64,000 bases of DNA, from contig NZ_JAFNJS010000001.1 of assembly GCF_019024325.1 (NCBI RefSeq), forward strand, positions 558,001 through 622,000, written 5' to 3'. Source of the stretch: Falsiroseomonas tokyonensis (GTDB lineage: Bacteria; Pseudomonadota; Alphaproteobacteria; Acetobacterales; Acetobacteraceae). Below are positions 29,232 to 54,312 of the stretch, in pieces (position 1 is the stretch's first letter; each line of letters starts with the position of its first letter). The notes under the pieces were generated by a model. The model made no database searches, had not been told where the DNA came from, and worked only from the letters and a program-made list of their open reading frames with translations. The translations under genes were made by a program, and so were the position numbers.

Positions 29232-30327
29232 GGCGACCAGCACCGTGCTGGCGCCGGTGCCCTGGTTTCCCTTCGGCCGGCTGCCCTTCGGCGGCGCGCG
29301 GCTGCAGGGCTGGACGCGCTACGCCGGCATCGCGGCGCGCGAGTCGCGGCACGGCATCACGGTGCACCACCCGCGCTTCGCGGCCCTGCCCGGCATCGGC
29401 ATGCTGACCGGCCCGGCGGCGCTGCATGCCGCGGCGCGTGGCGCGCTGGCGCAGCTGATCGCGGCCGGCCATCGCTTCGATGCGATCGATGCGCACTACG
29501 CCTATCCCGATGGTGTCGCCGCGATCCGGCTCGGCCGTGAATTCGGCCTGCCGGTGGTGATCACGGCGCGTGGCTCCGACATCTCGCAGCTGCCGGACCA
29601 TCGCCTGCCGCGGCGGATGATCCAGCAGGCCATCCAGCGCGCCGCGGCGCTGATTGCCGTCAGCGTCGGGCTGAAGGACGGGCTGGTGAAGCTGGGCGCA
29701 CCGGCGGACAAGGTGACCGTGCTGCGCAACGGCGTGGACCTGGAGGCCTTCCGCCCGGCGGCGGAGGATCGCATGGCGCTGCGCGCCGGGCTCGGCCTGG
29801 GCGAGGGACCGCTGCTGATCTCGGTGGGCCACCTGATCCCGCGCAAGGGGCACGACCTGGTCATCCGCGCTCTGCCGCAGCTGCCCGGCCATGCGCTGAT
29901 GGTGCTGGGCGAGGGGCCGGAACGCGGCGCGCTGCTGGCGCTGGCGCAGCAGCTGGGCGTGGCGGATCGCGTGCACCTGCTGGGCGCGCAGCCGCATGCG
30001 GAACTGCCGCGCTACTACAGCGCCGCCGATGCGCTGGTGCTGGCCTCGGCGCGGGAAGGCTGGGCCAATGTGCTGCTGGAATCCATGGCCTGCGGCACGC
30101 CGGTGGTGGCCAGCCCCGCCTGGGGCAGCCGCGAGGCGGTGCGCAGCCCGGCCGCCGGCCTGGTGATGCCGGAGGCGACGCCGGAGGCGATCGCCGCCAC
30201 CACGCGCCGGCTGCTGGGCCTGCGCATCGATCGCGCGGCGACGCGCGCCTATGCCGAGGGCTTCGGCTGGGAGGAAACCACGGCGGGCCAGCTTTCCGTC
30301 TTTCGAAAGGTGCTGGCATGCGGCTGA
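29041..30327 (+). CDS. glycosyltransferase family 4
   Basis: A 428-residue GT-B glycosyltransferase. The N-terminal half shows LTFSTLYPNAAQPNHGVFVE and HYAYPDGVAAIRLGREFGLP. The C-terminal half shows VLRNGVDLEAFRP, ISVGHLIPRKGHDLVIRAL and the E-x7-E donor region (SAREGWANVLLESMACGTPV). GAGGAG lies about 9 bases before the ATG. The C-terminus overlaps the next gene by 10 bases. It adds a sugar of the repeat unit in the cytoplasm; specificity is unknown. Confidence 0.9.
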   Translation: MQSDQTLLESPASRAVAPRQNQTATRPAGALRLLTFSTLYPNAAQPNHGVFVENRLRHLVASGEATSTVLAPVPWFPFGRLPFGGARLQGWTRYAGIAARESRHGITVHHPRFAALPGIGMLTGPAALHAAARGALAQLIAAGHRFDAIDAHYAYPDGVAAIRLGREFGLPVVITARGSDISQLPDHRLPRRMIQQAIQRAAALIAVSVGLKDGLVKLGAPADKVTVLRNGVDLEAFRPAAEDRMALRAGLGLGEGPLLISVGHLIPRKGHDLVIRALPQLPGHALMVLGEGPERGALLALAQQLGVADRVHLLGAQPHAELPRYYSAADALVLASAREGWANVLLESMACGTPVVASPAWGSREAVRSPAAGLVMPEATPEAIAATTRRLLGLRIDRAATRAYAEGFGWEETTAGQLSVFRKVLACG

Positions 30328-32387
30328 CCCGGAGGAGCCTGGCCGGGCTGGGCCTGGCTGGCCTGGCGCCGCCCGCCGCCCTGGCGCAGGCCGGCGTGGT
30401 GCGCAGCGTGCCGATGCCCTGCCTGGCGCAGTCCGGCGATATCGTCGCCCTGGTGCTGGAGGGCAGTGGCGCCCCGGCCCGGCGTGTGGTGACCTTCGGC
30501 CAGGTTTTCGCACCAGGCGACCTGCCACGTGGCGCTGGCCTTGCCGCGCGACTGGCGGATGGCGGCGCGGTGCCGTTGCAGGCGGATGTGAAGCTGCGGC
30601 ACGCCGATGGCTCCGCCCGCTTCGCGCTGCTGGCGCTGGCCGCGCCCGCCTTGGCCGCCGGCGCGCAGGCCGGCGTGGTGCTGCATCGCGGCCCGGCCGT
30701 CGCCGGCGCGCCCTTCACGCCGGACCTCGCCCGGCGCAGCGCCATCCTGCACGTCGCGGATCAGCGGGTGGATCTGATGGCCGGGCTGCGCCAGGCGCTG
30801 CAACGGCCGACCGAGCTGTGGCAGGCCGGGCCGCAGGCGCTGCAGGCGCGCGTGATGCAGCCGATGGAGATCGGCCGCGTCACCTCGCTGCGCGTGGTGG
30901 CGGACATCACGCTGACGGCGGATGGGGGGATGGCCATCGACCTGTGGCTGCGCAACGACGGCGCCATGCGCCCGGGCGGCGGCGCCCTGGCCTATACCGC
31001 GCGCCTGCTGCTGGATGGGCGGGAGGCGCTGGTGGCCGAGCTGCCGCGCCACCACCACTATACCGGCTGGGGCCGCCTGCTGCGCAGCGGCCCGCCCCCC
31101 GCCTTCGTGCGGCCCGATGCGACCTACCTGGCGGAGGCCGGCGCGGCGCCGCGCTACGACCTGTCCACCGGCGTCGCCGCCACGCTGCTGGAAGCCATGG
31201 GCCGCCGGGTGCGGGAGGCCGAGTGGGCGCCGGCGCTCGGCCCGCGCTTCGTGACGCAGCAGATGGGCCGCACCGGCGGGCGCGCCGATATCGGGCCGAT
31301 GACCATGCCGCAGGCCGCCTGGCTGCAGACCGGCGATCCGCGCGCCGCCGCCTTCGCCATCGGCCAGGCGGAAGCCGCGGGCAGCATCCCCTGGCATTTC
31401 TGGGACAGCGCCGCCGACCGCTGGATGGATACGCGGCGCTGGCCGCAGCTCTGGACCGATGGCCGCGGCGGCGCCCCGCCCGGCGGGCTGGCGCAGCCGA
31501 TCGCGCAGGATACCGGCTGGAACCTGGCGTCCTCCCACCAGCCGGACCTGGCGACGCTGCCCTGGCTGCTGACCGGCCGCCGGGCATTCCTCGACGAGCT
31601 GCAGGCCCAGGCCTGCTGGTGCGTGCTGGGCCAATGGCCGCGCGCCCGCGGCAGGCCCGGCGGGCCGGGGCTGGCGGAGGGCGTGAACGTGGTGCGCAGC
31701 AACCAGGTGCGCGGCGCCGCCTGGTCGCTCCGCCAGCTCGACAACGCCGCCTGGGCCACGCCGGAGTCCGAGCCCAATGCCGATTGGCTGCGGGAGGTTG
31801 CGGCGGCGAATTGGGGCTGGATCCGCCAGCAGCTGCCGCGCTGGACCCGCGCGCAGGGCGAGGCGCATGGCTGGATCCCCGGCGAATACGGCACCCCGGG
31901 CCTGCTGCCGCCCTGGCAGCAGGACTATTTCGCCGCCATCGCCGCCGCCGCCGCACGGCGCGGCAGCGCGGATGCGCGCGCCGTGCTGGACTGGATGACC
32001 AATTTCCTTGCCGGGCGATTCCTGATGGGGCCGCAGGGTTTTGCACCCCATGACGGTGCCGCTTATCTGCTGGCGATGCAGGCGGATGCCGATGCGCGCA
32101 ACCCGCTGAGCAGCTGGCGGCAGATCGGCGATGCGACGCGCGCAGCCTCGCTGTCCAATGGCGATGGCTGGAGCAAGACGGAAGGCGATTATGCACAGCT
32201 CGCGCTGCAGTCGCTCGCCGCGCTGATCGATGTGACGGAGTCGGGCGCGGCGCGCGCCGCCTATGACTGGCTATCCCGCGCTGGCGCCCCCTTCACGGGC
32301 GTCGCGGATTACCGGCGCGACCCGCTGCTGAACATCGTGCCGCGCGGTCAGCCGCGGGTGCCGGGCGCGATGCCGCGCTGCCGGTAG
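30318..32387 (+). CDS. unrecognised Tat-exported protein, paralogue of the 51208 gene
   Basis: A 689-residue protein of a family I cannot name. The N-terminus has a twin-arginine-type signal (LTRRSLAGLGLAGLAPPAAL, cleavage after AQA). An N-terminal beta-rich part (~28-270) includes TFGQVFAPGDLP. A helical C-terminal part (~300-670) is rich in aromatic and acidic motifs: GGRADIG (320-326), IPWHFWDS (357-364), HQPDL (407-411), SNQVRGAAWSLRQ (461-473), GEAHGW (514-519) and PPWQQDYF (531-538). The same motifs recur in the same order in the protein at 51208. The helical-repeat style and clustered Trp/Asp/His residues suggest an alpha/alpha-barrel enzyme acting on polysaccharide. It ends the XrtA plus-strand operon, next to convergent genes. 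Confidence 0.85.
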   Translation: MRLTRRSLAGLGLAGLAPPAALAQAGVVRSVPMPCLAQSGDIVALVLEGSGAPARRVVTFGQVFAPGDLPRGAGLAARLADGGAVPLQADVKLRHADGSARFALLALAAPALAAGAQAGVVLHRGPAVAGAPFTPDLARRSAILHVADQRVDLMAGLRQALQRPTELWQAGPQALQARVMQPMEIGRVTSLRVVADITLTADGGMAIDLWLRNDGAMRPGGGALAYTARLLLDGREALVAELPRHHHYTGWGRLLRSGPPPAFVRPDATYLAEAGAAPRYDLSTGVAATLLEAMGRRVREAEWAPALGPRFVTQQMGRTGGRADIGPMTMPQAAWLQTGDPRAAAFAIGQAEAAGSIPWHFWDSAADRWMDTRRWPQLWTDGRGGAPPGGLAQPIAQDTGWNLASSHQPDLATLPWLLTGRRAFLDELQAQACWCVLGQWPRARGRPGGPGLAEGVNVVRSNQVRGAAWSLRQLDNAAWATPESEPNADWLREVAAANWGWIRQQLPRWTRAQGEAHGWIPGEYGTPGLLPPWQQDYFAAIAAAAARRGSADARAVLDWMTNFLAGRFLMGPQGFAPHDGAAYLLAMQADADARNPLSSWRQIGDATRAASLSNGDGWSKTEGDYAQLALQSLAALIDVTESGAARAAYDWLSRAGAPFTGVADYRRDPLLNIVPRGQPRVPGAMPRCR

Positions 32388-33368: not shown

Positions 33369-33370
33369 GC

Positions 33371-38779: not shown

Positions 38780-38782
38780 TCG

Positions 38783-40318: not shown

Positions 40319-41277
40319 ACGCGATGCCGGACCCTGCGGCCGGGCCCGCGCGCTGGTCCGTCGGCGTCTTCGGCCGCAACGAGGCAGCGCGCATCGGCGC
40401 CTGCCTGCGCGCCATCGCGCGCGCGGCGGCGGAGGTGCGGGCGGAGGCGGTGCCGCATGTCACCGTGCTGCTGAACGGCACCACCGACGATTCGCCGGCG
40501 CTGGCCGCCGCGGCGCTGCGCGAAGCGGGGCTGGCCGGCGAAGTGCACCAGGTGCCGCATGCGGACAAGTCGCATGCGCTGAACCTGTTCCTGCATGAGC
40601 TGCGGCCGCCGGCCACGCTGTATTTCTGCATCGACGCCTATGCCGAAATCTGGCCGGATTCGCTCCGCCACCTGGCCCGCCGCCTGGAACGGCAGCCGGA
40701 GGCGCTGGCCGCCGCCGCGGTGCCGAGCAGCGGCCGCAGCGCGGACGCGCTGCGCCAGGGCATGTTGCGCCATTCCGGCCTGCACGGCTCGCTCTTCGCG
40801 CTGCGCGCCACCTTCGTGGAACGGCTGGCGAGCGCCGGGCTGCGGCTGCCCATCGGGCTCTATCGTGGCGACGGGTTGCTCGGCTCCTTCCTGCTGCACG
40901 ACCTCGACGCCGCGAAGGGCGGCTGGGAGGGATGGCGCATCGCGGTGGAGCCGGCGGCCAGCTGGACCACGCCGCGCTGGCAGCCCTGGCGCTGGCAGGA
41001 TCTGCGCCGCCATCTGCACCGGCTGGTGCGGCAGGGCCGCGGGCGGCTGGAATCGGCGGCGCTGCGCCAGGCGATCTACACCGATGGCTTCGCGGGCCTG
41101 CCGAAGGATGCCGATGCCATGCTGCGCGACTGGATCGCCGCCGATCCGCGGGCGCGCCGCCCGAAGCTGTGGCGCGACCCCTTCGCCTGGCTGGCCCTCG
41201 CGCGGCTGCGTCACGCCGCGCCGCCGGCGCCGGATCAGCTGCGGCCGCGCCTGGTGCTGCGGAACGAGGCAGCATGA
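40315..41277 (+). CDS. glycosyltransferase family 2-like protein
   Basis: A 320-residue GT-A type protein with SVGVFGRNEAARIGACLRAI, VTVLLNGTTDDSP, ADKSHALNLF and LYFCIDAYAEI in place of the usual D-x-D. The canonical Asp-rich metal motif is altered (CIDAYAE), which makes catalysis less certain than for the other GT2 genes here. It starts with an ATGA overlap to the flippase. Its 3' end overlaps the converging next gene by about 40 bases. Confidence 0.82.
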   Translation: MNAMPDPAAGPARWSVGVFGRNEAARIGACLRAIARAAAEVRAEAVPHVTVLLNGTTDDSPALAAAALREAGLAGEVHQVPHADKSHALNLFLHELRPPATLYFCIDAYAEIWPDSLRHLARRLERQPEALAAAAVPSSGRSADALRQGMLRHSGLHGSLFALRATFVERLASAGLRLPIGLYRGDGLLGSFLLHDLDAAKGGWEGWRIAVEPAASWTTPRWQPWRWQDLRRHLHRLVRQGRGRLESAALRQAIYTDGFAGLPKDADAMLRDWIAADPRARRPKLWRDPFAWLALARLRHAAPPAPDQLRPRLVLRNEAA

Positions 41278-42308
41278 GGACGCAGCACCTGCCAGGCGCG
41301 CAGCGCCATGCCCGTGGGCGACCAGCGCGGCACCAGCTCCACCCAGAACAGCGGCGCGCTGTGCGGCGCCAGGCTGCGCTTGTAGCGGTCGTCGCCGCCG
41401 AGGAAGTCATACACGCCATCGCCGCGCGAAAGGCTTTCGGCGATGGCCATCGCATGGCAGGCGAGGCCCGGCCGGGCCTGCGGATCCGTGAAGGGCGCGA
41501 AGCCGCTCTGATAGGCGGAGACGCGGCCGCGCAGCCGGAAGTTGTACAGGATGCCGAGCGTCGCGGGGCCGGCGCGCAGTTCCAGCAGATCGATCTCGTC
41601 GCGCGGAAAGCTGCGCGCCACCAGCGCGGCGTGGAAGCGCCGCAGCCAGGGGGTGGCGAAGGCGCCGGGCTTGCCGCGGGCCTGCCAGCTCGCCTCGTGC
41701 AGCGCGATCATCCGGCCCAGCATTGCCTGCGCCTCGGCCTCATCCGCCGCGCGATGCAGCGCCAGCGGGCCCATTCCGGAAAAGTGCCGCAGGGTCCGGC
41801 GGATCTGCTGGCGGGCATTGGCGCTCAGCGAGGCCAGATGGTCGCCGCCGGCCGCGCGGATCGCATCCAGGTCGACGAAGGGCGCCTGGCGTTCCTGGCA
41901 GCGCAGCGCCACGCCCGGTGCTGCGGCCAGCACCGCCGGCGGCACGCCGCCCAGCAGCAGCCGCCGAACATCTGGCGCGGCCGCGGCAGCGCGCAGCAGC
42001 GCGGCGCAAAGGCCGGGTTCTTCCAGCATCAGGGGGCCGTTATGCTCGACGAAGGGCGCATCCCGCGCCGGATCGCCGCTCTCGCCAAGGCAGAGCCGGC
42101 CGCCGCGCCGGTTGCACAGCGCGAGAGCCACCACCTGGCCGCGGCTTTCGGCGCGCAGCAGCAGCGCATCGTCGAAGCGCTCCTCCGCCAGGCAGCCCAC
42201 CCAGCTCCAGCTGCGGAAGAAGGACAGGCTTTCGACCCGCGCCTCCAGGGCGCGCCATTCCTCGCCGAGCTCGATCAGGTCGGGGCGGCGAATGAGGTCG
42301 ATCTTCAT
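41235..42308 (-). CDS. GNAT/FemAB-like acyltransferase (BcsL/CelD type)
   Basis: A 357-residue protein of the acetyltransferase group found in cellulose and exopolysaccharide operons. The start at 42308 gives MKIDLIRRPDLIELGEEW. FFRSWSWVGCLAEERF, LSANARQQIRRTLRHF (a FemAB-like segment), LHEASWQARGKPGAF, and the CoA-region-like SAYQSGF...GLACHAMAIAESL with DFLGGDDRYKRSLA follow. It probably attaches an acyl group to the polymer precursor. It is divergent from the fusion gene at 42356 and convergent with the preceding glycosyltransferase. Confidence 0.82.
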   Translation of the reverse strand: MKIDLIRRPDLIELGEEWRALEARVESLSFFRSWSWVGCLAEERFDDALLLRAESRGQVVALALCNRRGGRLCLGESGDPARDAPFVEHNGPLMLEEPGLCAALLRAAAAAPDVRRLLLGGVPPAVLAAAPGVALRCQERQAPFVDLDAIRAAGGDHLASLSANARQQIRRTLRHFSGMGPLALHRAADEAEAQAMLGRMIALHEASWQARGKPGAFATPWLRRFHAALVARSFPRDEIDLLELRAGPATLGILYNFRLRGRVSAYQSGFAPFTDPQARPGLACHAMAIAESLSRGDGVYDFLGGDDRYKRSLAPHSAPLFWVELVPRWSPTGMALRAWQVLRPHAASFRSTRRGRS

Positions 42309-42355
42309 TGCCGCCATGCAGCGCGAAGCCCGGCCGCCGCGCAAGGGGGGCGGGC

Positions 42356-44593
42356 ATGACCCGCGCGGATGTGCGCAGGCCCGGCCGGGTGCTGCATGTG
42401 CTGAAATACTACCGCCCCGCCTTCACCGGCGAAGGCGTGTTTCTCGAACGCAGCAGCGCCGTGATGCAGGAGCTTGCGCCGGAGCTGGGGCACGACCTGC
42501 TGGTGACGCATACGCCGCGCCCGCCGCAGGACCCGGCGGCCTGCACCACGATCGGCCACGTCATCTACCTCTCGGATCATCCGCTCGGCACGCTGCGGCG
42601 GCAGCTGCGCATGGCGGCCTGGTTCCTGGCGAACCTGCATCGCTATCGCGTGGTGCATGTCCGCACCCATGCCGACTGGTACTTCGTCACCTATCTGCTG
42701 GCCCGGCTGGCGCGGCGGCGGCTGATCCTTTCCGCCACGCTGGATGACAGCCTGCCGGTGCTGATCAACCAGTACCGCCCCAGCCTGCGCCGGCTGGCGG
42801 CGCGCGGCTTCAGGCTGTTCGACGGCTATGTCAGCATCAGCCCCAAGCTGGATGCGGAAACCCGCGGCATCGCCCCCGCCGCGCGCTGCCACCTGATCCC
42901 CTGCGGCGTCAGCATCCCCCTGGCCCCGCCGGATGGCCGCGCCCGGATGCGCCAGAACCTCGGCATCGGGGCGGAGGAGCTGGTGCTGCTCTTCGTCGGC
43001 GGGCTGGGCGCGCGCAAGGATCCGCTGTTCCTGGTGCGTGCCCTGCCGCGCATCCTGGCGGCGCGGCCGGATACGCGGCTGATCCTGGTCGGCCCGGTGC
43101 TGGAGGAGGCGCATCTGGAGGCGATCCGCGGCGTCATCGCGGCCCGGAACCTCGGCGACCGCGTCATCCTGGCCGGCGAGCAGCGCGACCCGCACCCTTA
43201 TTTCCTCGCCGCCGATATCCTGGTCTTCGCCTCCCACCTCGAAGGCTTCGGCACCGTGGTGCCGGAGGCGATGGCGCATGGCCTGCCCGTGGTGGTGCGC
43301 CACCTGCCCGGCGTGAACGACAGTTTCGTACTCCAGGACGAAACCGGCTACCTGTTCGATGACGAGGAGGGCTACGTCGCCGCCGTCACCAGCCTCGCCG
43401 CGGATGCCACGCTGCGCGCGCGGCTGGGCGCGGAAGGGCGCAAGCTGGCGCGCGGCCGCTTCGGCATGCGCGGCGTCGCGGAACGCTACCTGGCCGTCTA
43501 TGGCACGAAGCTGGATCCGGTGGCGCCGGAGGAGACGCGCCTCGGCGCCACCGCCTCCGTGCTCGACCGCCGCTTCCACGCGCCGCTTGCGCCACCGGCT
43601 GATTCTCCGCCGCTGCTGATCACCATGGTGGATGCGGAGGAGGCCTTCGACTGGTCCGGCCCCTTCCGCCGCGATGCGCCGGATGTCGCCTCCATGTCCG
43701 CGCAGGAAAGGGCGCATCGGATCTTCGAGAAGCACGGTGTGGTGCCGCTGTACCTGGTGGACTATCCGGTGGCGACGCAGGAGGCCGGGCGCGCGCCGCT
43801 GCGCGAGCTGCTGGCCGATGGCGCCTGCGAGATCGGCGCGCAGATGCACCCCTGGGTGACCCCGCCCTTCACCGAGGAGGTGAACGAGCGCAACAGCTAT
43901 GCCGGCAACCTGCCGGTGGACCTCGAGCTCGCCAAGGCACGCTGCCTGACCGATGCGCTGGCCGAGGCCTTCGGCGAGGCGCCGCGGATCTATCGCACCG
44001 GCCGCTTCGGCGCCGGGCCGCGCACGGCCGATATCCTGAAGTCGCTTGGCTACCTGGCCGATAGCAGCGTGACGCCGCATTGGCCGGCCGGGGGCGTCAC
44101 CGGCGGCCCTGCCGGCAACTGGGCCTTTTCCGCCAAGCCCTATTGGACCGATCGCGACCGCACGTTGCTGGAGATCCCGGTCTCCGCCGCGCTGGTCGGC
44201 CATCTGGCCGGCACGCGCGCGGAAGGCCTGGCGCCGCAGATTTTCGGCCGAGGCGGGGAACGCCTGCGGCTCGGCGGCGCACTGGCGCGCTTCGGCCTGC
44301 TGGAGCGGATCCGGCTGAGCCCCGAGGGCATGACGCTGGAGGAGGCGAAGCGGCTGACGCGTCATATGCTGGCGCAAGGCCATCGCAGCTTCGTGCTGAC
44401 CTATCACTCGCCGTCGCTGGCACCGGGCAATACACCTTATGTGCGGGATGCGGCGCAGCTGGCGCGCTTCCTCGGCTGGCTGGACGACTACTACGCCTTC
44501 TTCCGGGAGGAGGTCGGCGGCCGCTTCGGCAGCTGGCGGGACCTGCGCGGCGTCGCGCCGGCCGGGCGCGCCACCGCGACGGTCGCCGCGTGA
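42356..44593 (+). CDS. glycosyltransferase family 4 fused to polysaccharide deacetylase (WalW-like)
   Basis: A 745-residue two-domain protein. Residues 1-~395 are a GT4 enzyme (VLHVLKYYRPAFTGEGVFLE, LIPCGVSIPLAPPDGR, FVGGLGARKDPLFLVRAL, FASHLEGFGTVVPEAMAHGL). Residues ~415-745 are a NodB/WalW-like deacetylase: LLITMVDAEEAFDW (metal Asp), IGAQMHPWVTPPF (His), IYRTGRFGAG, and SFVLTYHSPSL near the end. A strong AAGGGGGG site precedes the ATG. The fusion would couple adding a sugar with deacetylating it, presumably in the cytoplasm as no signal peptide is present. Confidence 0.88.
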   Translation: MTRADVRRPGRVLHVLKYYRPAFTGEGVFLERSSAVMQELAPELGHDLLVTHTPRPPQDPAACTTIGHVIYLSDHPLGTLRRQLRMAAWFLANLHRYRVVHVRTHADWYFVTYLLARLARRRLILSATLDDSLPVLINQYRPSLRRLAARGFRLFDGYVSISPKLDAETRGIAPAARCHLIPCGVSIPLAPPDGRARMRQNLGIGAEELVLLFVGGLGARKDPLFLVRALPRILAARPDTRLILVGPVLEEAHLEAIRGVIAARNLGDRVILAGEQRDPHPYFLAADILVFASHLEGFGTVVPEAMAHGLPVVVRHLPGVNDSFVLQDETGYLFDDEEGYVAAVTSLAADATLRARLGAEGRKLARGRFGMRGVAERYLAVYGTKLDPVAPEETRLGATASVLDRRFHAPLAPPADSPPLLITMVDAEEAFDWSGPFRRDAPDVASMSAQERAHRIFEKHGVVPLYLVDYPVATQEAGRAPLRELLADGACEIGAQMHPWVTPPFTEEVNERNSYAGNLPVDLELAKARCLTDALAEAFGEAPRIYRTGRFGAGPRTADILKSLGYLADSSVTPHWPAGGVTGGPAGNWAFSAKPYWTDRDRTLLEIPVSAALVGHLAGTRAEGLAPQIFGRGGERLRLGGALARFGLLERIRLSPEGMTLEEAKRLTRHMLAQGHRSFVLTYHSPSLAPGNTPYVRDAAQLARFLGWLDDYYAFFREEVGGRFGSWRDLRGVAPAGRATATVAA

Positions 44594-45342
44594 CCCTGCT
44601 GCAGAACATCCTGGCGCCGCTGCTGCTGCCGCCGCTCGGGCTGGTGCTGCTGGGGATCCTCGCCGGCCTGGTGGCGGCGCGGCGCGCCGGGCGCGCCTGG
44701 CCGGGGCTGCTGGCGGCGATATCGGGCTGCGGCGTGCTGCTGCTGGCCACGCCGCTGGCCGCCGGGCTGCTGGTGCATTCGCTGCAGCCCGAGATGCCGC
44801 CGGCCGGCTTGCCGCCGGCGGCGATCATCATCCTCGGCGGCGACATGACCGAGGGGCAGCAGGGCGCCGATATCGGGCAGCTGACGCTGGAACGGCTGCG
44901 CGCCGGCGCCGCGCTGCACCGCGCCAACGGCCTGCCGATCCTGGTGACCGGCGGCGTGCTTTCCGCCGGGCGGCCGCCACTGGCTTCCCTGATGGCGCGC
45001 AGCCTGCAGGCCGATTTCGGCGTGACGGCGCGCTGGGTGGAACCGCGCGCGGCCGATACGCGGGAGAATGCGGCCTTCTCCGCCGCGCTGCTGCGCGAGG
45101 CCGGCGTGCCCGCGGCGCTGCTGGTGACGCAGGGCTGGCACATGCCACGCGCGCTCGACGCCTTCGCGCGGCAGGACTTTCCGGTGCAGCCGGCGCCGGT
45201 GCGCATCGCGCGCGCGCCGCGGCTCGGATGGTCCGCGCTGGCCCCGCGCGCAGATCACCTGCTGGAAAGCTGGTTCGCCATCCACGAATGGGCCGGGCGC
45301 GCCTTCTATGCGCTGCGCGACGGCAGGGTGGCACGCCCATGA
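44590..45342 (+). CDS. YdcF/SanA-like (DUF218) membrane protein
   Basis: A 250-residue inner-membrane protein. Two N-terminal hydrophobic helices (~5-25 and 36-58) precede a Rossmann-like DUF218 domain: AAIIILGGDM, LTLERLRAGAALHR, LPILVTGGVLS, EPRAADTRENAAF and LLVTQGWHMPRAL. The GTG start overlaps the preceding fusion gene (GTGA), which supports it. The family is widespread and poorly understood, linked to envelope polysaccharide metabolism. It ends about 115 bases before a sigma-54 promoter. Confidence 0.88.
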   Translation: MTLLQNILAPLLLPPLGLVLLGILAGLVAARRAGRAWPGLLAAISGCGVLLLATPLAAGLLVHSLQPEMPPAGLPPAAIIILGGDMTEGQQGADIGQLTLERLRAGAALHRANGLPILVTGGVLSAGRPPLASLMARSLQADFGVTARWVEPRAADTRENAAFSAALLREAGVPAALLVTQGWHMPRALDAFARQDFPVQPAPVRIARAPRLGWSALAPRADHLLESWFAIHEWAGRAFYALRDGRVARP

Positions 45343-45375
45343 TGACCACCCCCAGGATGCGTGCCAAGGCGGGCC

Positions 45376-45439
45376 GGCTTGTCGACACGATTTACAAGCC
45401 TGCCCCAATTCGGCGGGAATGCCCGACAAGCTTTTGTTC
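45376..45439 (+). promoter_or_regulatory. putative enhancer (activator-binding) repeats
   Basis: A perfect inverted repeat, GGCTTGT-N11-ACAAGCC (45376-45400), lies about 70 bases upstream of the -24 element of the second sigma-54 promoter. A third copy of the half site, GACAAGC, occurs at 45425-45431, with a TTTGT partner right after it. The position fits an upstream activating sequence for an enhancer-binding protein such as PrsR. The first PEP-CTERM promoter lacks an obvious copy, so the assignment is tentative. Confidence 0.4.
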
Positions 45440-45456
45440 TAGAACGAGAAAAATTG

Positions 45457-45471
45457 TGGCAGGCAGCTTGC
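45457..45471 (+). promoter_or_regulatory. sigma-54 promoter of PEP-CTERM gene 2
   Basis: TGGCAG-GCAGC-TTGC has the -24 GG and -12 GC exactly 10 bases apart, and differs from the ideal TGGCAC by one base. The start of transcription should be near 45483, giving a leader of about 108 bases to the ATG at 45591. It closely parallels the promoter at 9250-9264 in front of the other PEP-CTERM gene. Confidence 0.78.
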
Positions 45472-45536
45472 TTATGACGATGGCGGCAAGGCTGGGGCGG
45501 ATGGTCCGCACCGGGGGCCTCGACCAGGCCGTCCCG

Positions 45537-45572
45537 CAGGGGGTCCCCCAGGGGGTCCCACAGGGGCGGCAG
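45537..45572 (+). repeat. three tandem 12-bp units in the PEP-CTERM gene 2 leader
   Basis: CAGGGGGTCCCC, CAGGGGGTCCCA and CAGGGGCGGCAG follow each other without gaps. The first two contain G5TC4-5 palindromic cores and could fold into alternative hairpins in the leader RNA. They lie between the predicted sigma-54 start and the ribosome-binding site. Confidence 0.7.
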
Positions 45573-45590
45573 CAACGGAGCGTATGTGCC

Positions 45591-46376
45591 ATGCGTCTTC
45601 CATCCCTGAAACAGCTTGTCGTCGCCATCACCATGGCGGCGACCGGAACCGCCTCCGCGGGTGTCATTCGTGTCGACGAGGCCGCCTTCCAGGCCGGCGC
45701 CGGCCTGATCACCTTCAGCGAGTTTGCCCTCGGCACCGTCAACCCCGTCTATACCCCCGCCGCCTATGGCGGCGGCGGCGGGTCGCCCGACGTCACCTTC
45801 GACGGCTACTTCACCGGTCAGAGTCCGGGCGCCGGCAATCCGGCCGCCTGCCCGGCCGGTGCGGCCGTCTCCGGCTGCGTTCTCGGCAACCCGACCGGCC
45901 CGCTGAGCCTCGACTCCGCCTCCCCGAACACCTTCATCACGACGGACGGTGCCAATCCGACCTCGCCGGTGCTGTCCGGCACACCGAGGTTTAACGGCTC
46001 CATCGCCATCCTGTTTTCCAGCGCGCAATTCGGCGTGGGTCTCAGCGGCGGCTTCTTCAATGCGGTCGGCGGCACCGCCATCACCGCCTTCGACGCGGCC
46101 GGCAATGTCATCGGCAGCGTGTCGAACACCGGCCTGGGCATCGAATTTCTCGGCCTGGTGACGGATAACGGCCAGGCGGAGATCGCCGGGCTGCTGTTCT
46201 CCCTGGTGGGCGAGGAACCGGCCGGCTTCGCCATCGACAACCTGCGCTTCGGCCAGCGCGGCCAGGTGATCGAACCGACGCCGGTGCCGGAGCCCGCCTC
46301 CATCGCGCTGTTCGGCCTGGGCCTCGCGGGTCTGACCGCGCTGCGGCGCCGCGCGCGTCGCCACCCGGCCGCCTGA
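45591..46376 (+). CDS. PEP-CTERM sorting domain protein (exosortase substrate 2)
   Basis: A 261-residue secreted protein. The ATG at 45591 gives a clean signal peptide (LKQLVVAITMAATGTASA). Earlier in-frame ATGs lie near or before the predicted transcription start and would add a repeat-encoded PQGVPQG leader. The body is Gly/Phe-rich with two cysteines (PAACPAGAAVSGC) and ends in GFAIDNLRFG, a phrase common in PEP-CTERM proteins. The sorting signal at the C-terminus is VPEPASIALFG, a hydrophobic stretch, and RRRARRHPAA. XrtA encoded at 9349 should process it. The function of the mature protein is unknown. Confidence 0.9.
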   Translation: MRLPSLKQLVVAITMAATGTASAGVIRVDEAAFQAGAGLITFSEFALGTVNPVYTPAAYGGGGGSPDVTFDGYFTGQSPGAGNPAACPAGAAVSGCVLGNPTGPLSLDSASPNTFITTDGANPTSPVLSGTPRFNGSIAILFSSAQFGVGLSGGFFNAVGGTAITAFDAAGNVIGSVSNTGLGIEFLGLVTDNGQAEIAGLLFSLVGEEPAGFAIDNLRFGQRGQVIEPTPVPEPASIALFGLGLAGLTALRRRARRHPAA

Positions 46377-46378
46377 GC

Positions 46379-47491
46379 TTGCCCCAGGCCGAGACCTTCG
46401 CCGTGCCGGCCTCCGGCACGGCCCCAACCTGCCCCGCCGGCGCATCGCGCGCCGGCGGAAAGCTGCGCCTGCTGCCGCTGCCGCAGCGCCGCCTGCCCGA
46501 CTGGTGCGACCGCTTCCTGCAGCCGGTCGGCGCAGGCGATATCTTCGCCACGCGGCTCTGGTACGACACGACGCTGGCGCATGCCCTTCCCGCGGGGGCG
46601 GTGCCGCTGCTCGGGCTATGCGAGGCCGAGAGCGCCCTGCTGCCGCTGCTGCGCGGGCGACGCGGCGCGCTGCTCAGCCTCACCACCCCCTATTCGCTCA
46701 CCTGGCGGCCACTGCCCTCGCTGGTCTCCGGCCCCTGTGCGATGCATGCGGCGGGCGCCAGCTTCGGCGCGGCGCTGCGCTTTCGCGCACCGGTGCGGCT
46801 GGAAGCCCTGGCCGAGGATACGCCGGGGCTGGAGGATTGGCTGGCCGGGATCGGCTCCGCCGGCCTTGCCGTCCAGCGCTATCGCCACTTCGGCAATTGG
46901 CACGAGGCGCTGGTGCCTGGCGCCGGCTGGTCCGGCTACCTGGCGGCCCGCCCGCCGGCGCTGCGCAGCACCGTGCGCCGCAAGATGGAGCGCGCCGGCC
47001 GCGACTTCCGCTTCGAGATGCAGACCGCCCCCGGTCCGGCGCTGGACCGCGCCATCGCCGGCTATCTGGAGGTGCATGCGGGCAGCTGGAAGCCGGCCGA
47101 GCCCGCCCCGGGCTTCGACCCCGCGCTGATGCGCGCCGCCGCGGCGCTGGGCGTGCTGCGGCTTGGCCTGCTGCGCGATGCGGCGGGCCAGGCGGTGGCG
47201 GCGCAATACTGGCTGGTCTCCGCCGGGCGCGCCTGGCTGCTGAAGCTCGCGCATCTGCAGGCGAGCCGCGCGGCCTCACCGGGCACCGCGCTGACGGCGA
47301 TGATGATCCGCCACCTGATCGAGGAGGAAGCCGTGCAACACCTGGATTTCGGTCGCGGCGACGATGCCTACAAAGGCCTGTGGGTGGCCGCGCGGCGGCA
47401 GCGCATCGGGCTGGTTCTGGCGCATGCGGGCCATCCGCTCGGGCTGCTTGCGCTGCTGCGGCGGCGGGCGGCGGGATGGCTCGGCCGATGA
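46379..47491 (+). CDS. GNAT/FemAB-like acyltransferase
   Basis: A protein of up to 370 residues in the same broad group as the one at 41235. It shows RHFGNWHEALVPGAGWSGYL, the FemAB-like ALRSTVRRKMERAGRDFRFE, EVHAGSWKPAEPAPGFDP, QYWLVSAGRAWLLKLAHLQ and the closing LDFGRGDDAYKGLWVAARRQ. The N-terminus is uncertain: only TTG (46379) or GTG (46403) is available, and both lie within or before strong hairpins. It could be co-expressed with PEP-CTERM gene 2 or controlled separately. It probably modifies the polysaccharide. Confidence 0.8.
   Translation: MPQAETFAVPASGTAPTCPAGASRAGGKLRLLPLPQRRLPDWCDRFLQPVGAGDIFATRLWYDTTLAHALPAGAVPLLGLCEAESALLPLLRGRRGALLSLTTPYSLTWRPLPSLVSGPCAMHAAGASFGAALRFRAPVRLEALAEDTPGLEDWLAGIGSAGLAVQRYRHFGNWHEALVPGAGWSGYLAARPPALRSTVRRKMERAGRDFRFEMQTAPGPALDRAIAGYLEVHAGSWKPAEPAPGFDPALMRAAAALGVLRLGLLRDAAGQAVAAQYWLVSAGRAWLLKLAHLQASRAASPGTALTAMMIRHLIEEEAVQHLDFGRGDDAYKGLWVAARRQRIGLVLAHAGHPLGLLALLRRRAAGWLGR
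46400..46457 (+). other. two consecutive strong GC hairpins after PEP-CTERM gene 2
   Basis: GCCGTGCCGG and its complement pair across a 3-base loop (46400-46422). A second perfect 9-bp stem, CGCCGGCGC with GCGCCGGCG across a 5-base loop, follows at 46435-46457. There is no T-tract. They begin 23 bases after the PEP-CTERM stop and fall within the first codons of the next gene if its TTG start is right. They may terminate, attenuate or stabilise the upstream message. Confidence 0.55.
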
Positions 47492-48669
47492 GGATTCTCT
47501 ACAGCCACCGCATCCGGTCCCGCGATGGGCAAGGCGTGCATCTGGACGCCATGGTGGCCGCGCTGCGGGCGGCCGGGCATGAGGTGCGCGTGACCGGCCC
47601 CGCGGGCTACGACAAGGCGGCGCTGGGCGGCGAAAGCCGCGGCCTGGCGCGGCTGCGGCGCCTGCTGCCGGCCTGGGCGCAGGCGCTGGCGGAGATCGGC
47701 TATGCGGTGCCCGCCACCTGGCGTCTGCACCGCGCCGCCGCCGCCTTCCGGCCCGATGTGATCTACGAGCGCGCCAATCTGTACCACGTGGCGGGCCGCA
47801 TCGTGGCGCGCACGCACGGCGTGCCGCTGCTGCTGGAGGTGAATGCGCCGCTGGCGGAGGAACGCGCGAAGTTCGGCGGCCTCGGCCTGCCGCGCCTTTC
47901 CGCCTGGATCGAGCGCTTCGCATGGCGCGGCGCGCAGCGCGTGCTGCCGGTGACGGAGGTGCTGGCCGGGCGTGTCGCCGCCGCGGGCGTGCCGGCCGCG
48001 CGCATCACCGTGGTGCCGAACGGCATCGACCTGGCGGAATTCCCCGAAGCCGTGGCGACCCCAGTTCGGGACACGCTGGTGCTGGGTTTCGTCGGCTTCG
48101 TGCGGGACTGGCACGGGCTGGACAAGGCGCTGCACGGCATCGCCGCCTGGCGCGGCGAGCGGGCGCTGTCGCTGGTCGTCGTCGGCGATGGCCCGGCGCG
48201 GCCGGGGCTGGAGCGGCTGGCACGCGACCTCGGCATCGCCGATCGCGTCCACTTCACCGGCCTGGCCGCGCGGGAAGAAATCCCGGCGCTGGTCGCCGGC
48301 TTCGACATCGCGCTGCAGCCCGCCGCAGTTCCCTATGCCTCTCCCTTGAAAGTCTTCGAATACATGGCTGCTGCCCGCGCGATCGTCGCCCCCGACCAGG
48401 CCAATCTGCGGGAGGTGCTGCGCGACGGCGAAACCGCGCTGCTGTTCGATCCGTCGGAAGCCGGCGGCTTCTGGGGCGCGGTCGCGCGGCTGGCGCAGGA
48501 TGACGGGCTGCGCGCGCGGCTCGGCACCGCGGCACGGGCGGAGGTGGTGTCGCGCGACCTGACCTGGGCCGGCAATGCCCGCCGCGTCGTGGCGATCGCG
48601 GAGGCAGAGCGCGCGGCGCTGCGGCCGGATGGCGCGCCAGCGAAGCTGCCGCGGCGGTCGCTGGCATGA
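47488..48669 (+). CDS. glycosyltransferase family 4
   Basis: A 393-residue GT-B enzyme. The ATG at 47488 (MRILYSHRI) overlaps the upstream stop (ATGA); 47476 is an in-frame alternative. It shows RDGQGVHLDAMVAALRAAGH, DVIYERANLYHVAG, LLLEVNAPLAEERAKFGG, TVVPNGIDLAEFPE, VGFVRDWHGLDKALHGIA and SPLKVFEYMAAARAIVAPD. The closest style is that of glycosyltransferases encoded beside FemAB-like genes in exopolysaccharide clusters. Overlaps the next gene by 4 bases. Confidence 0.9.
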   Translation: MRILYSHRIRSRDGQGVHLDAMVAALRAAGHEVRVTGPAGYDKAALGGESRGLARLRRLLPAWAQALAEIGYAVPATWRLHRAAAAFRPDVIYERANLYHVAGRIVARTHGVPLLLEVNAPLAEERAKFGGLGLPRLSAWIERFAWRGAQRVLPVTEVLAGRVAAAGVPAARITVVPNGIDLAEFPEAVATPVRDTLVLGFVGFVRDWHGLDKALHGIAAWRGERALSLVVVGDGPARPGLERLARDLGIADRVHFTGLAAREEIPALVAGFDIALQPAAVPYASPLKVFEYMAAARAIVAPDQANLREVLRDGETALLFDPSEAGGFWGAVARLAQDDGLRARLGTAARAEVVSRDLTWAGNARRVVAIAEAERAALRPDGAPAKLPRRSLA

Positions 48670-49865
48670 GCCCGCCGATGATGCCGGAGGCCGGCATGGC
48701 GGCACGGCTGGCCGATGCCGAACGCGTGCCGCGGCCGGGGCGGATGCAGGGCGCGGAACAGGCCGGCAGGCCGGCGCAACCCCGGCTGGTGATGCATGTC
48801 TTCCCCAGCTTCGCCGTGGGCGGCGCGCAGGTGCGCTATGCCGCGCTGGCCAACCGCTTCCGCGCGCGCTGGCGGCATGTGGTGGTGCCGCTGGATGGCA
48901 ATGGCGCCTGCGCGGCGCGCATCGGCCCGCAGGTGCCCTTCACCCTGCTGGATCCGCCGCGCGCGCGCGGCACGGCGGGGCGGATCTGGCAGATCCAGTC
49001 GCTGCTGCGCCGGCTGCGCCCGGATGTGCTGGTGACCGGCAATTGGGGCAGCATGGATTGGGCGATCGCCCAGCACGCCATCCCCGGCCTGCGCCACCTG
49101 CATATCGAGGACGGCTTCGGGCCGGAGGAAGCCGCGCAGCAGTTCCGCCGCCGCGTGCTGGCACGGCGCTGGGCGCTGCGGCGCAGCACCGTGGTGCTGC
49201 CATCCGTCACGCTGCTGCGCCTGGCGCAGGAAGAATGGCGGCTGCCGCGGGGCCGGCTGCGCTACGTGCCGAACGGCCTGGACCTGAATCGCTTCCGCCC
49301 GGACGGGCCGGTGGCCAGCCCGGCCCCCGGCCCGGCCGAGGTCCCGCTGATCGGCACGGTGGCGGCGCTGCGACCGGAGAAGGCGCTGGACCGGCTGCTG
49401 CGCGCCTGCGCGCTGCTGGCGCGCCGCCGCACCCCCTTCCGGCTGGCGATCCTGGGCGATGGGCCGGACCGGGCGCGTCTGCAGGCGCTGGCGGCGGAAC
49501 TCGGCATCGAAGGCCTGGTGACCTTCGCCGGCCATGTGCCCGACCCTGCCGCCGCCTATCGGTCCTTCGACGTCTTCGCGCTGTCCTCCGATACCGAGCA
49601 GATGCCCTTCTCGGTGCTGGAGGCGATGGGCACGGGCCTGGCGGTGGCCTCCACCGATGTGGGCGATGTCTCCGCCATGCTCGCCGCGCCGAACCTGCCC
49701 TTCGTGACGCCGAAGGACGATGCCGACTTCGCCATCGCCCTGGCGACGCTGCTGGAAGAGCCGGAGCGGCGACGCTCCATCGGCGCCGCCAACCGGTCCC
49801 GCGCCGTGCTGGATTTCAGCGAGGAGGCGATGTTCCAGTCGTACGCCGCGCTGATCGAGGGCTGA
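48666..49865 (+). CDS. glycosyltransferase family 4
   Basis: A 399-residue GT-B enzyme starting with an ATGA overlap. After a ~40-residue non-conserved N-terminus come VMHVFPSFAVGGAQVRYAAL, TGNWGSMDWAIAQ, LHIEDGFGPEE, VPNGLDLNRFRPDGP, GTVAALRPEKALDRLLRACA and SSDTEQMPFSVLEAMGTGLA. The second methionine-rich start region (MSPPMMPEAGM) leaves the exact start open. It is the last gene of this plus-strand run. Confidence 0.9.
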   Translation: MSPPMMPEAGMAARLADAERVPRPGRMQGAEQAGRPAQPRLVMHVFPSFAVGGAQVRYAALANRFRARWRHVVVPLDGNGACAARIGPQVPFTLLDPPRARGTAGRIWQIQSLLRRLRPDVLVTGNWGSMDWAIAQHAIPGLRHLHIEDGFGPEEAAQQFRRRVLARRWALRRSTVVLPSVTLLRLAQEEWRLPRGRLRYVPNGLDLNRFRPDGPVASPAPGPAEVPLIGTVAALRPEKALDRLLRACALLARRRTPFRLAILGDGPDRARLQALAAELGIEGLVTFAGHVPDPAAAYRSFDVFALSSDTEQMPFSVLEAMGTGLAVASTDVGDVSAMLAAPNLPFVTPKDDADFAIALATLLEEPERRRSIGAANRSRAVLDFSEEAMFQSYAALIEG

Positions 49866-49884
49866 TCCGCGGCGCCCAGGGCAC

Positions 49885-49954: not shown

Positions 49955-50003
49955 GTTAGTGTCATCGGATAGTGCTTTAGGCGCCACGCATGGGACCGCG
50001 GCT

Positions 50004-51207: not shown

Positions 51208-54200
51208 ATGCCTGACACCGCCCACGACCTTGTGTTCCAGAATGCCGGGGCGGGCCGCCTCGGGGACGGTATCGCCACCTTCGGACAGGTCTTCCAGCGC
51301 GGCGAAGTGCCGGCCGGCGCGACCGTCACCGCCCGCGATGGCGCCACCAGCCTCGCCGTCCAGATGGACGTGAAGACCCGCTATGAGGACGGGTCGGTGA
51401 AGATGGCGGTGCTCTCCGTCGCCCGCCCGGCGCTGGCAGCGGGTGAGAGCCTGAGCCTCGTGCTCGGCACCGCCGCGGCCGGTCCGGCGCCCGCCGCGCT
51501 CGACATGGCCCAGGGCCTGGCAGGCCATTCCTTCACGGTGGATGTCGCCATAGATGGCGGCGCCCGGCAGACAGTGGATGTGCTGGCGGCGCTGCGCACC
51601 GCGCTGCAGGACGGCAGCGCCAGCTTCTGGCAGCAGGGCCCGCTCTCCACCCAGGCGCGGGTGGGCATCGACCTGCCCGGCTCCCATCGGATGGTCTTCG
51701 ACGTCACCGTCTTCAAGGGCGGCGGCTTCGCGGTGGAGGCGCAGTTCAACAACGACCAGGCGATGCAGGCCTCGGGCGGTCGCGCCACCGCCAACATCAC
51801 GGTGCGGATGGACGGCAAGATCGCGCTGCAGGAAACGGTGACGCAGAGCCAGTACCAGAATTGGCACGAAAGCTTCGCCAGCAATGCGAAGGATGGCGGC
51901 CAGGGCATCGGGTCCCCGCAGTCCGGCTGGCTGAACATCCAGCACGACATCGCCCATCTGCAGGAAACCGGGGCGGTGGCGAATTACGACCTTGGCATCG
52001 CGGTCGATCCCAAGCTTCTGGCCGGCTATGCCCAGGCCATGCAGGCCCCTGGCTGGGATGACCCGCTGGGCACCCGTGGCGTCGCCACCTACATGCCCGG
52101 CACCGGCGGGCGCGCCGATATCGGCTTCACCACCATGCCGAATACCGTCTGGCTGATGACGCAGGATGCCCGGGCCGCCGCCTATGCGCTGGGCCAGGCG
52201 GAAACCGCCAGCGTCATCCCCTGGCACTTCTGGGACTCCGCCAATGACCGCTGGCTGGACACCAACGCCTATCCCAATCTTTGGCTGGATGGCCGCGGCG
52301 GCGTCGGCCGGCCTGGCGATGCAAGCTCCGGCGGCCTGACCCAGCAGATCGATTCGCTTTCGGGCTGGAGCACCGACGCGGCGCACCAGCCCGACCTGTC
52401 CTACGTGCCTTATCTGATGACCGGCGCGCGCTGGATGCTGGACAACCTGCAGGCGCAGGCGGCCTGGAACATCCTGGGCCAGTGGCCCGCCGTGCGCGGC
52501 GGCGCCGAGGACAATGTGGTGGACAGCAACCAGGTGCGCGGCGCCGCCTGGTCGCTGCGCCAGATCGACAAGGCCGCCGTGGCGAGCCCGGATGGCAGCG
52601 TCGAGAAGGCCTTCTTCCAGGAAGCCTCGGACGCCAACTACGCCTGGCTGGTCTCGATGATCCCGGAATGGACCGCGAAGCAGGGTGAGGCGCATGGCTG
52701 GGTGCCCGGCGCCTATGGCACGGCGGGCGCGCTGCCGCCCTGGCAGCAGGACTACTTCGCCTCCACCGTCATTGCCGCCGCGCGCAACGGCAATGCGGAT
52801 GCGAAGACCTTCCTGGAATGGCAGTCCAACTTCCTCGTCGGCCGCTTCACGGCGGAGGATGAGGGCTTCGAGATGCGCGACGGCGCGGCCTATCTGATCG
52901 CCATCGGCGATGCCGGGACTGGCCGCATCTACAACACCTGGGAGGAGATCGGCGCGCAGACCGAGGCGCGGGGCTGGAGCAATGGCGACAACAGCTGGAA
53001 GCACAGCGAGGGCGACTATGCCCAGCTTGCGCTGGCGACGCTGGCCGGCATCTACGAGATCACCGGATCCGCCGCCGCCAAGGCGGCCTATGAGGCGCTG
53101 ATCGCGGAAAAGGCCCCCTTCGCGACCGATGCCGACTTCGCCCGCAACCCGACCTATGCGATCGAGGCGCCGGGTGCCGACCACGGCCCGGCCACGCCAC
53201 CCGCGCCGCCGCCGCCGGTCGTGCAGCAGCCCGAGGCGCCGCCACCTGTTGTGCCGCCGCCCGTGGTGCAGCCCGCCGAGCCGGAGATGGTGCCGATTGC
53301 CATCGTTCTGGGCGCGGATAACTGGCGCGGCAATCCCATCGCCGTGGTCAAGGTGGATGGGGTCGAAATGTTCCGCGGCGCCGTCTCCGCCCTGAACAGT
53401 GCCGGCGGCCAGCGCTACGAGCTGGGGGAGGTGGAGGCCGGGCGCCAGCACGTCGTCAAGGTCGCCTTCCTGAACGATGCCTGGGGCGGAAGCGCGGATG
53501 CGGACCGCAACCTCTATGTGAAGTCCATCCTGGTGGATGGCGTCTCCACCGGCCGTTTCGAGAGGCTGGAGCGCACGCGCGAAGCGACCTTCACATTGAC
53601 GGCGGAAGAGCTGGTCAGCGCAGAGGATATGCAGGACCTGCTCTCCATCCGCCTTTCCGGCGATGCCTGGAAAGGCCAAGCGCGCTACACGATCGCGGTG
53701 GACGACGTGCAGCATGGCGGCATCCGCACGGTCGGCGCCGAAAGGTCCAAGGGGGAGTCGGAGGTCATCACCCTGTCCGGCGATTTCGCCGACTCGCCGC
53801 ACAAGGTGGCGATTACCTTCCTGAACGATGCCTTCGGCGGCACGGAGGGCAAGGACCGCAACCTTCATATCGAGGGAATCTCGCTGAACGGCGTCGATCT
53901 GGACCAGTCCGCATCCCTGCATCGGAACGGCTCCATCACGTTCGACGTCAGCCCGCCGGCGCCCGGCGTGATCGAGACCATCGGCAGCGGGCCCGATGTG
54001 GTGCGCCTGGCGCTGTCGCAGGATGTGTGGGGGGAGGATGCGCAATTCCTGCTCTTCCTCGATGGGGTCCAGCTTGGCGGGCCGCGCAGTGTCAACGCAT
54101 CCCATGTCGAGGGGGAGCAGGAGATTTACGCCCTGCGTGGCGACTTTGATGCGGGCGATCACGTGCTGGGCGTTCGTTTCATTAACGATGCCTGGGGCGG

Positions 54201-54312
54201 CACCAGCACGACGGACCGCAACCTTCACATCGAGTATCTCTCGATGAACGGCGAGACACTGCATCAAGGCGCCACGCTGCTGATGAACGGGGACGTGTTT
54301 CTGCAGTTCTGA
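51208..54312 (+). CDS. unrecognised large protein with three xylan-binding-CBM-like repeats
   Basis: A 1034-residue protein. The ATG at 51208 has GGAGGAG 6 bases upstream; earlier in-frame starts lack this. Residues 1-~655 are homologous end to end to the protein at 30318: TFGQVFQRGEVP, GGRADIG, IPWHFWDS, HQPDL, NQVRGAAWSLRQ, GEAHGW and PPWQQDYF occur in the same order. A Pro/Val-rich linker (~660-695) follows. Three ~105-residue repeats then show the pattern of calcium-dependent xylan-binding modules (CBM60-like): NDAWGG or NDAFGG, a few residues, then DRNLY or DRNLH. Unlike its paralogue it has no signal peptide, so export, if any, needs another route. A polysaccharide-binding or polysaccharide-cleaving role is inferred. 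Confidence 0.85.
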   Translation: MPDTAHDLVFQNAGAGRLGDGIATFGQVFQRGEVPAGATVTARDGATSLAVQMDVKTRYEDGSVKMAVLSVARPALAAGESLSLVLGTAAAGPAPAALDMAQGLAGHSFTVDVAIDGGARQTVDVLAALRTALQDGSASFWQQGPLSTQARVGIDLPGSHRMVFDVTVFKGGGFAVEAQFNNDQAMQASGGRATANITVRMDGKIALQETVTQSQYQNWHESFASNAKDGGQGIGSPQSGWLNIQHDIAHLQETGAVANYDLGIAVDPKLLAGYAQAMQAPGWDDPLGTRGVATYMPGTGGRADIGFTTMPNTVWLMTQDARAAAYALGQAETASVIPWHFWDSANDRWLDTNAYPNLWLDGRGGVGRPGDASSGGLTQQIDSLSGWSTDAAHQPDLSYVPYLMTGARWMLDNLQAQAAWNILGQWPAVRGGAEDNVVDSNQVRGAAWSLRQIDKAAVASPDGSVEKAFFQEASDANYAWLVSMIPEWTAKQGEAHGWVPGAYGTAGALPPWQQDYFASTVIAAARNGNADAKTFLEWQSNFLVGRFTAEDEGFEMRDGAAYLIAIGDAGTGRIYNTWEEIGAQTEARGWSNGDNSWKHSEGDYAQLALATLAGIYEITGSAAAKAAYEALIAEKAPFATDADFARNPTYAIEAPGADHGPATPPAPPPPVVQQPEAPPPVVPPPVVQPAEPEMVPIAIVLGADNWRGNPIAVVKVDGVEMFRGAVSALNSAGGQRYELGEVEAGRQHVVKVAFLNDAWGGSADADRNLYVKSILVDGVSTGRFERLERTREATFTLTAEELVSAEDMQDLLSIRLSGDAWKGQARYTIAVDDVQHGGIRTVGAERSKGESEVITLSGDFADSPHKVAITFLNDAFGGTEGKDRNLHIEGISLNGVDLDQSASLHRNGSITFDVSPPAPGVIETIGSGPDVVRLALSQDVWGEDAQFLLFLDGVQLGGPRSVNASHVEGEQEIYALRGDFDAGDHVLGVRFINDAWGGTSTTDRNLHIEYLSMNGETLHQGATLLMNGDVFLQF
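53290..54309 (+). repeat. three protein-level repeats (CBM60-like modules) within the 51208 gene
   Basis: The three units cover about 53290-53600, 53630-53945 and 53985-54309. Each begins with a strand containing a DxW-type motif (ADNWRGN, GDAWKGQ, QDVWGED). Each contains FLNDAWGG, FLNDAFGG or FINDAWGG and ends with DRNL followed by an Asn-Gly or Asp-Gly turn. The Asp/Asn residues match the presumed calcium sites. The copies differ considerably, so the triplication is old. Confidence 0.75.

Follow-up and report, generated by a model that had tools for sequence, protein, structure and literature searches.

We describe herein a pair of related proteins, P0001 and P0002, encoded in a 64,000-nucleotide stretch of Falsiroseomonas tokyonensis DNA (the window) that also carries XrtA exosortase and exopolysaccharide (EPS) genes. 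The two probably represent an undescribed glycan-cleaving family with a PL26-like layout, in which P0001 acts in the periplasm and P0002 in the outer matrix on the XrtA polymer, and in which phage relatives act as depolymerases. A more specific reading is put forward tentatively: a new polysaccharide lyase family would be deployed twice (in the periplasm and outside) by some XrtA bacteria to govern how long the exosortase-system EPS is and how it is released; it would have passed between bacteria and phages on more than one occasion (phage groups lie next to the window's own family and to gammaproteobacterial members), and phages would use it as a depolymerase of the same matrix. The features concerned are as follows.

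9349-10821, - strand: XrtA exosortase (context)
19945-30327, + strand: XrtA-associated run of polyprenyl glycosylphosphotransferase, PrsK, PrsR, PrsT, putative O-glycosylation ligase and glycosyltransferase (context)
30318-32387, + strand: P0001, 689 aa, Tat-like N-terminus, clade A
30318-30386, + strand: Tat-like signal peptide of P0001 (twin-Arg, ALA end), read by eye; the first 60 residues contain a stronger hydrophobic stretch than its own
30438-30689, + strand: N-terminal beta domain of P0001, residues 41-124, PcRGLX-like RIFT barrel
30741-31112, + strand: central beta domain of P0001, residues 142-265, sandwich-like in the AlphaFold model
31119-32318, + strand: helical domain of P0001 (alpha/alpha-type in the model), residues 268-667, presumed catalytic
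31536-31538, + strand: His407 codon of P0001, invariant in 59 of 59 sequences, in a model loop of low confidence
31710-31712, + strand: Arg465 codon of P0001, invariant in 59 of 59
31731-31733, + strand: Arg472 codon of P0001, invariant in 59 of 59
44439-49865, + strand: PEP-CTERM protein, GNAT/FemAB-like protein and two glycosyltransferases, 5' of P0002 (context)
51208-54312, + strand: P0002, 1034 aa, no visible signal peptide, C-terminal tail, clade B
51208-53172, + strand: core of P0002 (residues 1-655), the part homologous to P0001
53308-53550, + strand: CBM60 module 1 of P0002
53641-53913, + strand: CBM60 module 2 of P0002
54016-54273, + strand: CBM60 module 3 of P0002

The initial annotation, made from the letters of the window, had proposed that P0001 and residues 1-655 of P0002 are related through seven motifs, and this was borne out: the motifs occur in identical order, and BLASTP aligned the two over 658 positions with 45% identity (480 bits, E 3e-161). 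No further members were found in the whole 6.16 Mb genome. The three carbohydrate-binding-like modules proposed for the P0002 tail proved to be CBM60 (PF16841; 129.9 bits against a Pfam cut-off of 28.2), the only CBM60 matches in the genome, and a linker that is proline-rich by eye joins them to the core. As also proposed, P0002 has no visible signal peptide and no hydrophobic N-terminal stretch. An alternative in-frame GTG start at 51124 would add 28 aa, a part that does not look like a signal peptide by eye.

P0001 is the final + strand gene of the XrtA-associated run at 19945-32387, and its start overlaps the upstream glycosyltransferase gene by 10 bases; the proposal that it ends the XrtA operon thus stands as to position, its operon status being read from gene order. 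Over their NCBIfam cut-offs in the window are XrtA, the chain-length determinant, the TIGR03016 outer-membrane protein, PrsK, PrsR, PrsT, the putative O-glycosylation ligase, the TIGR03087 glycosyltransferase and the FemAB-family protein TIGR03019; the amidotransferase stays under (730.5 against 816.9 for TIGR03108). Farther on, a PEP-CTERM protein (44439-46376; 29.5 bits, cut-off 20.7) and two glycosyltransferases precede P0002, with a - strand FkbM-type gene in between. Besides the FemAB protein of the XrtA system at 12044-13387, GNAT/FemAB-like proteins (PF13480) are encoded at 41235-42344 and 46379-47491. A 584-aa ORF 3' of P0002 (56173-57927) has no Pfam match at E 1e-4, and homologues of it are found 3' of the clade B genes of L032, L038 and L047 (a near-copy of L032). 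UDP-sugar dehydrogenase genes are present in the genome outside the window, so that the polymer may possibly contain uronate.

P0001 and P0002 had been described as assignable to no family. This holds for the core, which no Pfam or NCBIfam model covers (neither protein has any NCBIfam match), and fails for the N-terminal domain, a PcRGLX-like RIFT barrel. The Pfam model PcRGLX_1st (cut-off 22.1 bits) matches P0002 under cut-off at 20.5 bits and does not match P0001; at E 1 or better it matches 13 of 30 members, and it matches a Thiohalobacter copy above the cut-off (23.9 bits). Neither PF21345 nor PF21346 was found at E up to 10 in P0001 and P0002 or at E up to 1 in the 30 members, and PF21346 matches nothing in the window's own genome. 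With hhalign and a nine-sequence PL26 profile, the RIFT barrel scored 87-95%, and the middle and helical parts gave no signal. AlphaFold models, each built from ten sequences, predict two beta domains and one helical domain for both P0001 (mean pLDDT 71.4, pTM 0.80) and the P0002 core (71.1, 0.78), although several loops, including that of His407, have pLDDT below 50. When these models were compared with the PDB by Foldseek, the PL26 exo-rhamnogalacturonan lyase ranked first for both (probability 1.00). All five matches of P0001 with E below 0.001 were PL26 (best 3e-5), as were ranks 1-7 of the ten matches of the P0002 core under that threshold (best 7.5e-6), the other three being GH38 mannosidases. 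The helical domain anticipated by the initial annotation appears in both models. The whole-chain superposition on PL26 is poor (query-normalised TM only 0.30-0.42, rmsd 13-16 A). A PDB sequence search with P0002 gave a single chance-level match (E 5.1), and one with a 30-member profile gave nothing. Membership in PL26 was considered and dropped because the middle and helical parts showed no hhalign signal against the nine-sequence profile. Judged by profiles and predicted folds, P0001 and P0002 form a separate family with a PL26-like layout.

Conserved Trp, Asp and His residues had been pointed out in a helical domain. Across 59 aligned sequences (32 bacterial and 27 phage), His407, Gly420, Arg465, Trp469 and Arg472 are invariant, so that His and Trp are confirmed and Arg is added; no column is strictly invariant for Asp or for Glu. 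This alignment leaves out nine of 36 viral loci, two as near-copies (L084 and L099) and seven as partial (L090, L096, L105, L107, L111, L117 and L118). In beta-elimination, an Arg neutralises the uronate and a His moves the proton; His and Arg without a fixed acid pair would fit such chemistry as well as a PL26-like fold, and lyase action is somewhat favoured over hydrolysis. The foremost alternative keeps the location and the polymer and makes the family a glycoside hydrolase or transglycosylase with acidic catalysts, or an epimerase. All 59 sequences have either Asp or Glu at position 426, and an acidic catalyst is therefore possible; Asp324 is kept in 53 of 58 and Asp536 in 52 of 58, the alpha/alpha hydrolases GH105, GH88 and GH76 appear below PL26 in the Foldseek lists (E above 0.05), and GH38 mannosidases fall under E 0.001 with the second model. 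Catalytic acids, however, seldom interchange Asp and Glu, and none is strictly fixed here, whereas His407, Arg465 and Arg472 are. We regard this alternative as a real but doubtful one; its hydrolase form sits inside the broad explanation and differs in bond chemistry only.

The phage branch of the family lies beyond what the initial annotation could see from sequence. The best BFVD match is a phage protein (A0A6J5SAL0; E 7.3e-10, 19% identity, target TM 0.68), and one of 50,697 phage records, EBPR siphovirus 1, matches the P0002 core through gp39, which adjoins gp40, annotated as a "glycoyl hydrolase", with terminase and head genes within some 6 kb. A pattern scan of IMG/VR found 36 viral contigs (the viral label being the collection's) that encode relatives of 23-54% identity; L083-L118 and L119 are viral contigs carrying relatives of an XrtA-locus enzyme. 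Those of L083-L090 are 44-54% identical to P0001, the match beginning at residue 171 at the earliest, beyond the RIFT barrel; 99-187 other residues precede it, with a proline-rich linker in the six shown. In L106, L108 and L110, only the helical half is matched, after some 180-190 residues outside the match. Neighbours were sampled with PHROGs at 12 of the 36 loci, one to seven chosen neighbours each. Three loci place the relative beside baseplate or tail-fibre genes (tail fibre in L086 and L087; baseplate and tail fibre, plus a lipase, in L088) and three next to virion or packaging genes of other kinds (L084, L092 and L094, the last also with a partial major-tail-protein match). Another three (L093, L098 and L106, which has an exonuclease gene nearby) have DNA-metabolism neighbours, L100 has a lipase-family neighbour only, and L089 and L112 have no assigned neighbour among those sampled. 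The lipase-family gene phrog_6102 recurs beside the relative in L088 and L100. The phage copies of L088, L094 and L100 themselves match nothing in PHROGs v4 at E 1e-4.

In a 53-row tree, which additionally omits L103, L106, L108, L109, L110 and the bacterial L062, five phage rows (99/100) and L088 fall next to bacterial clade A within a group supported at 100/99, in no resolved order. Another 13 phage rows form the sister of the rows from Chromatiales and Thiohalobacter, in a group with 100/100 support. On this tree, at least three switches between phage and bacterium are required by well-supported branches. These relatives also bear on the idea that the proteins are structural or carbohydrate-binding (matrix adhesins or polymer chaperones) and that their enzyme fold is inactive. 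CBM60 and RTX tails would suit matrix proteins; nevertheless, P0001 has no binding modules, and three charged residues are invariant from bacteria to phages at the identities just given, which makes a purely binding role unlikely.

The family is XrtA/PEP-CTERM associated: it occurs with XrtA and sits in its loci. Among 146 relatives, it was found in 19 genomes and XrtA over cut-off in 32, with both in 18 (Fisher p 1.7e-13, kinship ignored); three of the 19 (G026, G072 and G102) were counted on partial matches only. The lone family-bearing genome without XrtA (G053) consists of some 1240 contigs at 87% completeness. XrtA is present in 15 of the 16 homologue genomes that belong to the window's own bacterial family. 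In a 398-genome sample of the phylum, where the prefilter of the search can miss members, the family occurs in three, namely the window's own genome, G265 and G466 (a weak 58-position match), all of which exceed the XrtA cut-off, compared with 35 in the whole set of 398. In 13 of the 19 genomes and in G265 (14 in all), the family gene and XrtA share a contig and are 5-45 kb apart, and the clade A gene comes after the same glycosyltransferase and/or O-ligase in eight of eight relatives. Around relatives, 23 stretches of 20 kb (several of them from one genome) were compared: 21 have homologues of the window's EPS genes and 14 have XrtA-system genes proper. On the Chromatiales contig L036, the family gene adjoins XrtA-system genes. 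The proposed link to exosortase and EPS loci is upheld as a strong one, XrtA being present in 18 of 19 homologue genomes. Homologues are not always beside such genes: the G076 copies lie outside XrtA loci (both stretches without EPS-gene homologues are from G076), as does a Skermanella plasmid copy, and 14 of the 32 XrtA genomes lack the family. One of 72,556 plasmid records matched the P0002 core. On plasmid pSR-1 of Skermanella rosea (L065, 19839-22445), an RTX-tailed member is annotated as a "calcium-binding protein"; it adjoins ParB-type partition genes among unrelated genes, outside any EPS locus. That the proteins scavenge external pectin-like glycans of plants or algae and merely lie near EPS genes would suit this Skermanella copy and the plant origin of rhamnogalacturonan, the PL26 substrate, but is quite unlikely given the genome-level tie to XrtA, the constant position of the clade A genes and the phage relatives adjoining tail genes in three loci.

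The notion of one exported and one tail-bearing copy extends beyond the window. Clade A (nine rows, support 100/100) is sister to clade B (eight rows, 100/99). Clade A N-termini are Tat-, Sec- or lipoprotein-like by eye, whereas clade B members have no visible N-terminal export signal and carry a C-terminal RTX or CBM60 tail instead. Seven genomes of the window's bacterial family hold both copies (the window's, G002, G007, G017, G019, G035 and G077, with G002 represented in the tree by the near-copy L032), and similar pairs occur in G037 and G076 outside clades A and B. With class labels set by tail length (>120 aa = B; L037 set to A by hand), the whole tree takes five A/B changes, four of them forced by well-supported branches. 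Alignment A1 covers 30 of 37 loci (without the fragments L018, L019, L020 and L029, and without L034, L035 and L037); the 31-row tree drops L047, L059, L060 and L062, and never had the incomplete copies of G021, G026, L033 and L035. Given the five A/B changes and the pairs outside the two clades, the split by address appears from the sequences to be recurrent. N-terminal hydrophobicity overlaps between class A (1.42-2.64) and class B (0.57-1.91), the two highest class B values sitting upstream of the likely start.

Fourteen of 15 tail-bearing proteins, P0002 included, have an RTX or CBM60 match with E of at most 0.001, in 12 of them over cut-off. Among the 14 tail-bearing relatives (L037 apart), RTX is found in nine (L053 just under cut-off), CBM60 in four (L034 under cut-off), and neither in L052. 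No RTX match occurs in P0002 or in the CBM60-tailed L031, L038 and L041, and RTX occurs in nine of the 11 remaining tail-bearing relatives scanned, so that the secretion route of P0002 is read from its relatives. By eye, the P0002 tail ends in Asp and mostly hydrophobic residues, and a PrtD-type type I secretion ATPase (668.8 bits) is encoded elsewhere in the genome. A Thiohalobacter metagenome-assembled genome (L037:2-8663) carries a tandem pair, one copy of which is lipoprotein-like by eye. The other has a signal-like N-terminus, a TSP3 repeat and a choice-of-anchor U domain (60.4 bits, cut-off 32); its C-terminus is hydrophobic with basic residues at the end, by eye a possible sorting signal.

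For catalysis, bond type, substrate, secretion route and phage role, we infer the following scheme. P0001 would cross the inner membrane by Tat and work in the periplasm on nascent EPS of the XrtA cluster, trimming it, removing stalled chains or determining its length. P0002 would most likely be exported via its C-terminus by type I secretion, hold the polymer through its three CBM60 modules, and cut or remodel the outer matrix. The phage relatives, some of them beside tail genes, would depolymerise the same kind of polymer. To our knowledge, little is known of the chemistry of XrtA/PEP-CTERM EPS; if the family does cut the XrtA polymer, it would offer a tool for polymer structure and a handle on the control of length and release, and the phage relatives, if true, would supply more candidates that naturally cut the polymer of a given host. 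The EPS of XrtA/PEP-CTERM bacteria matters in flocs (PMC9850573, in excerpt). The text of PMC1569441 on the PEP-CTERM/EpsH system does not mention a lyase, hydrolase or glycosidase, nor does that of PMC3097231 on EBPR phages mention a hydrolase. Among the matches listed, open-access literature contained no paper on the present, still nameless family and none on PcRGLX, with a single mention of exo-rhamnogalacturonan lyase in one paper and of polysaccharide lyase family 26 in two; a further search gave no title on PL26, and one on CBM60 with EPS gave soil-community work only.

The closest known system is PL26 PcRGLX of Penicillium chrysogenum (PDB 5XQ3, 5XQG, 5XQJ and 5XQO; Pfam PF19501, PF21345 and PF21346, YetA-like). 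Both share the N-terminal RIFT barrel and the order of beta and then helical domains, and PL26 is the first fold match of the two models. Unlike PL26, the present family lacks the second and third PL26 Pfam domains and any sequence kinship in the helical domain, has a shorter chain, and lies in an EPS cluster. CBM60 usually accompanies a xylanase, but in P0002 three matches over the curated cut-off are attached to an EPS-cluster protein. Phage tail depolymerases are usually beta-helix tailspikes; the relatives in L086, L087 and L088 adjoin baseplate or tail-fibre genes.

The family is new, and in its way of working would resemble known EPS depolymerases. ExoK and ExsH of Sinorhizobium meliloti, and PlyA and PlyB of Rhizobium leguminosarum, provide two EPS depolymerases per organism, a likeness of working and presumably not of kin. 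All four are set apart as probably another enzyme family, of GH16 type, that is not in XrtA loci. A GH16 enzyme also belongs to a Sphingomonas EPS gene set (PMC11340318, in excerpt). ExsH leaves the cell via the PrsDE system (PMC1403797, in excerpt), and low-molecular-weight succinoglycan is gone when ExoK and ExsH are both lost (PMC4916376, in excerpt). By analogy with these accounts, our working model is that P0001 would cut in the periplasm and P0002 beyond the cell, comparable to the action of ExoK and ExsH on succinoglycan.
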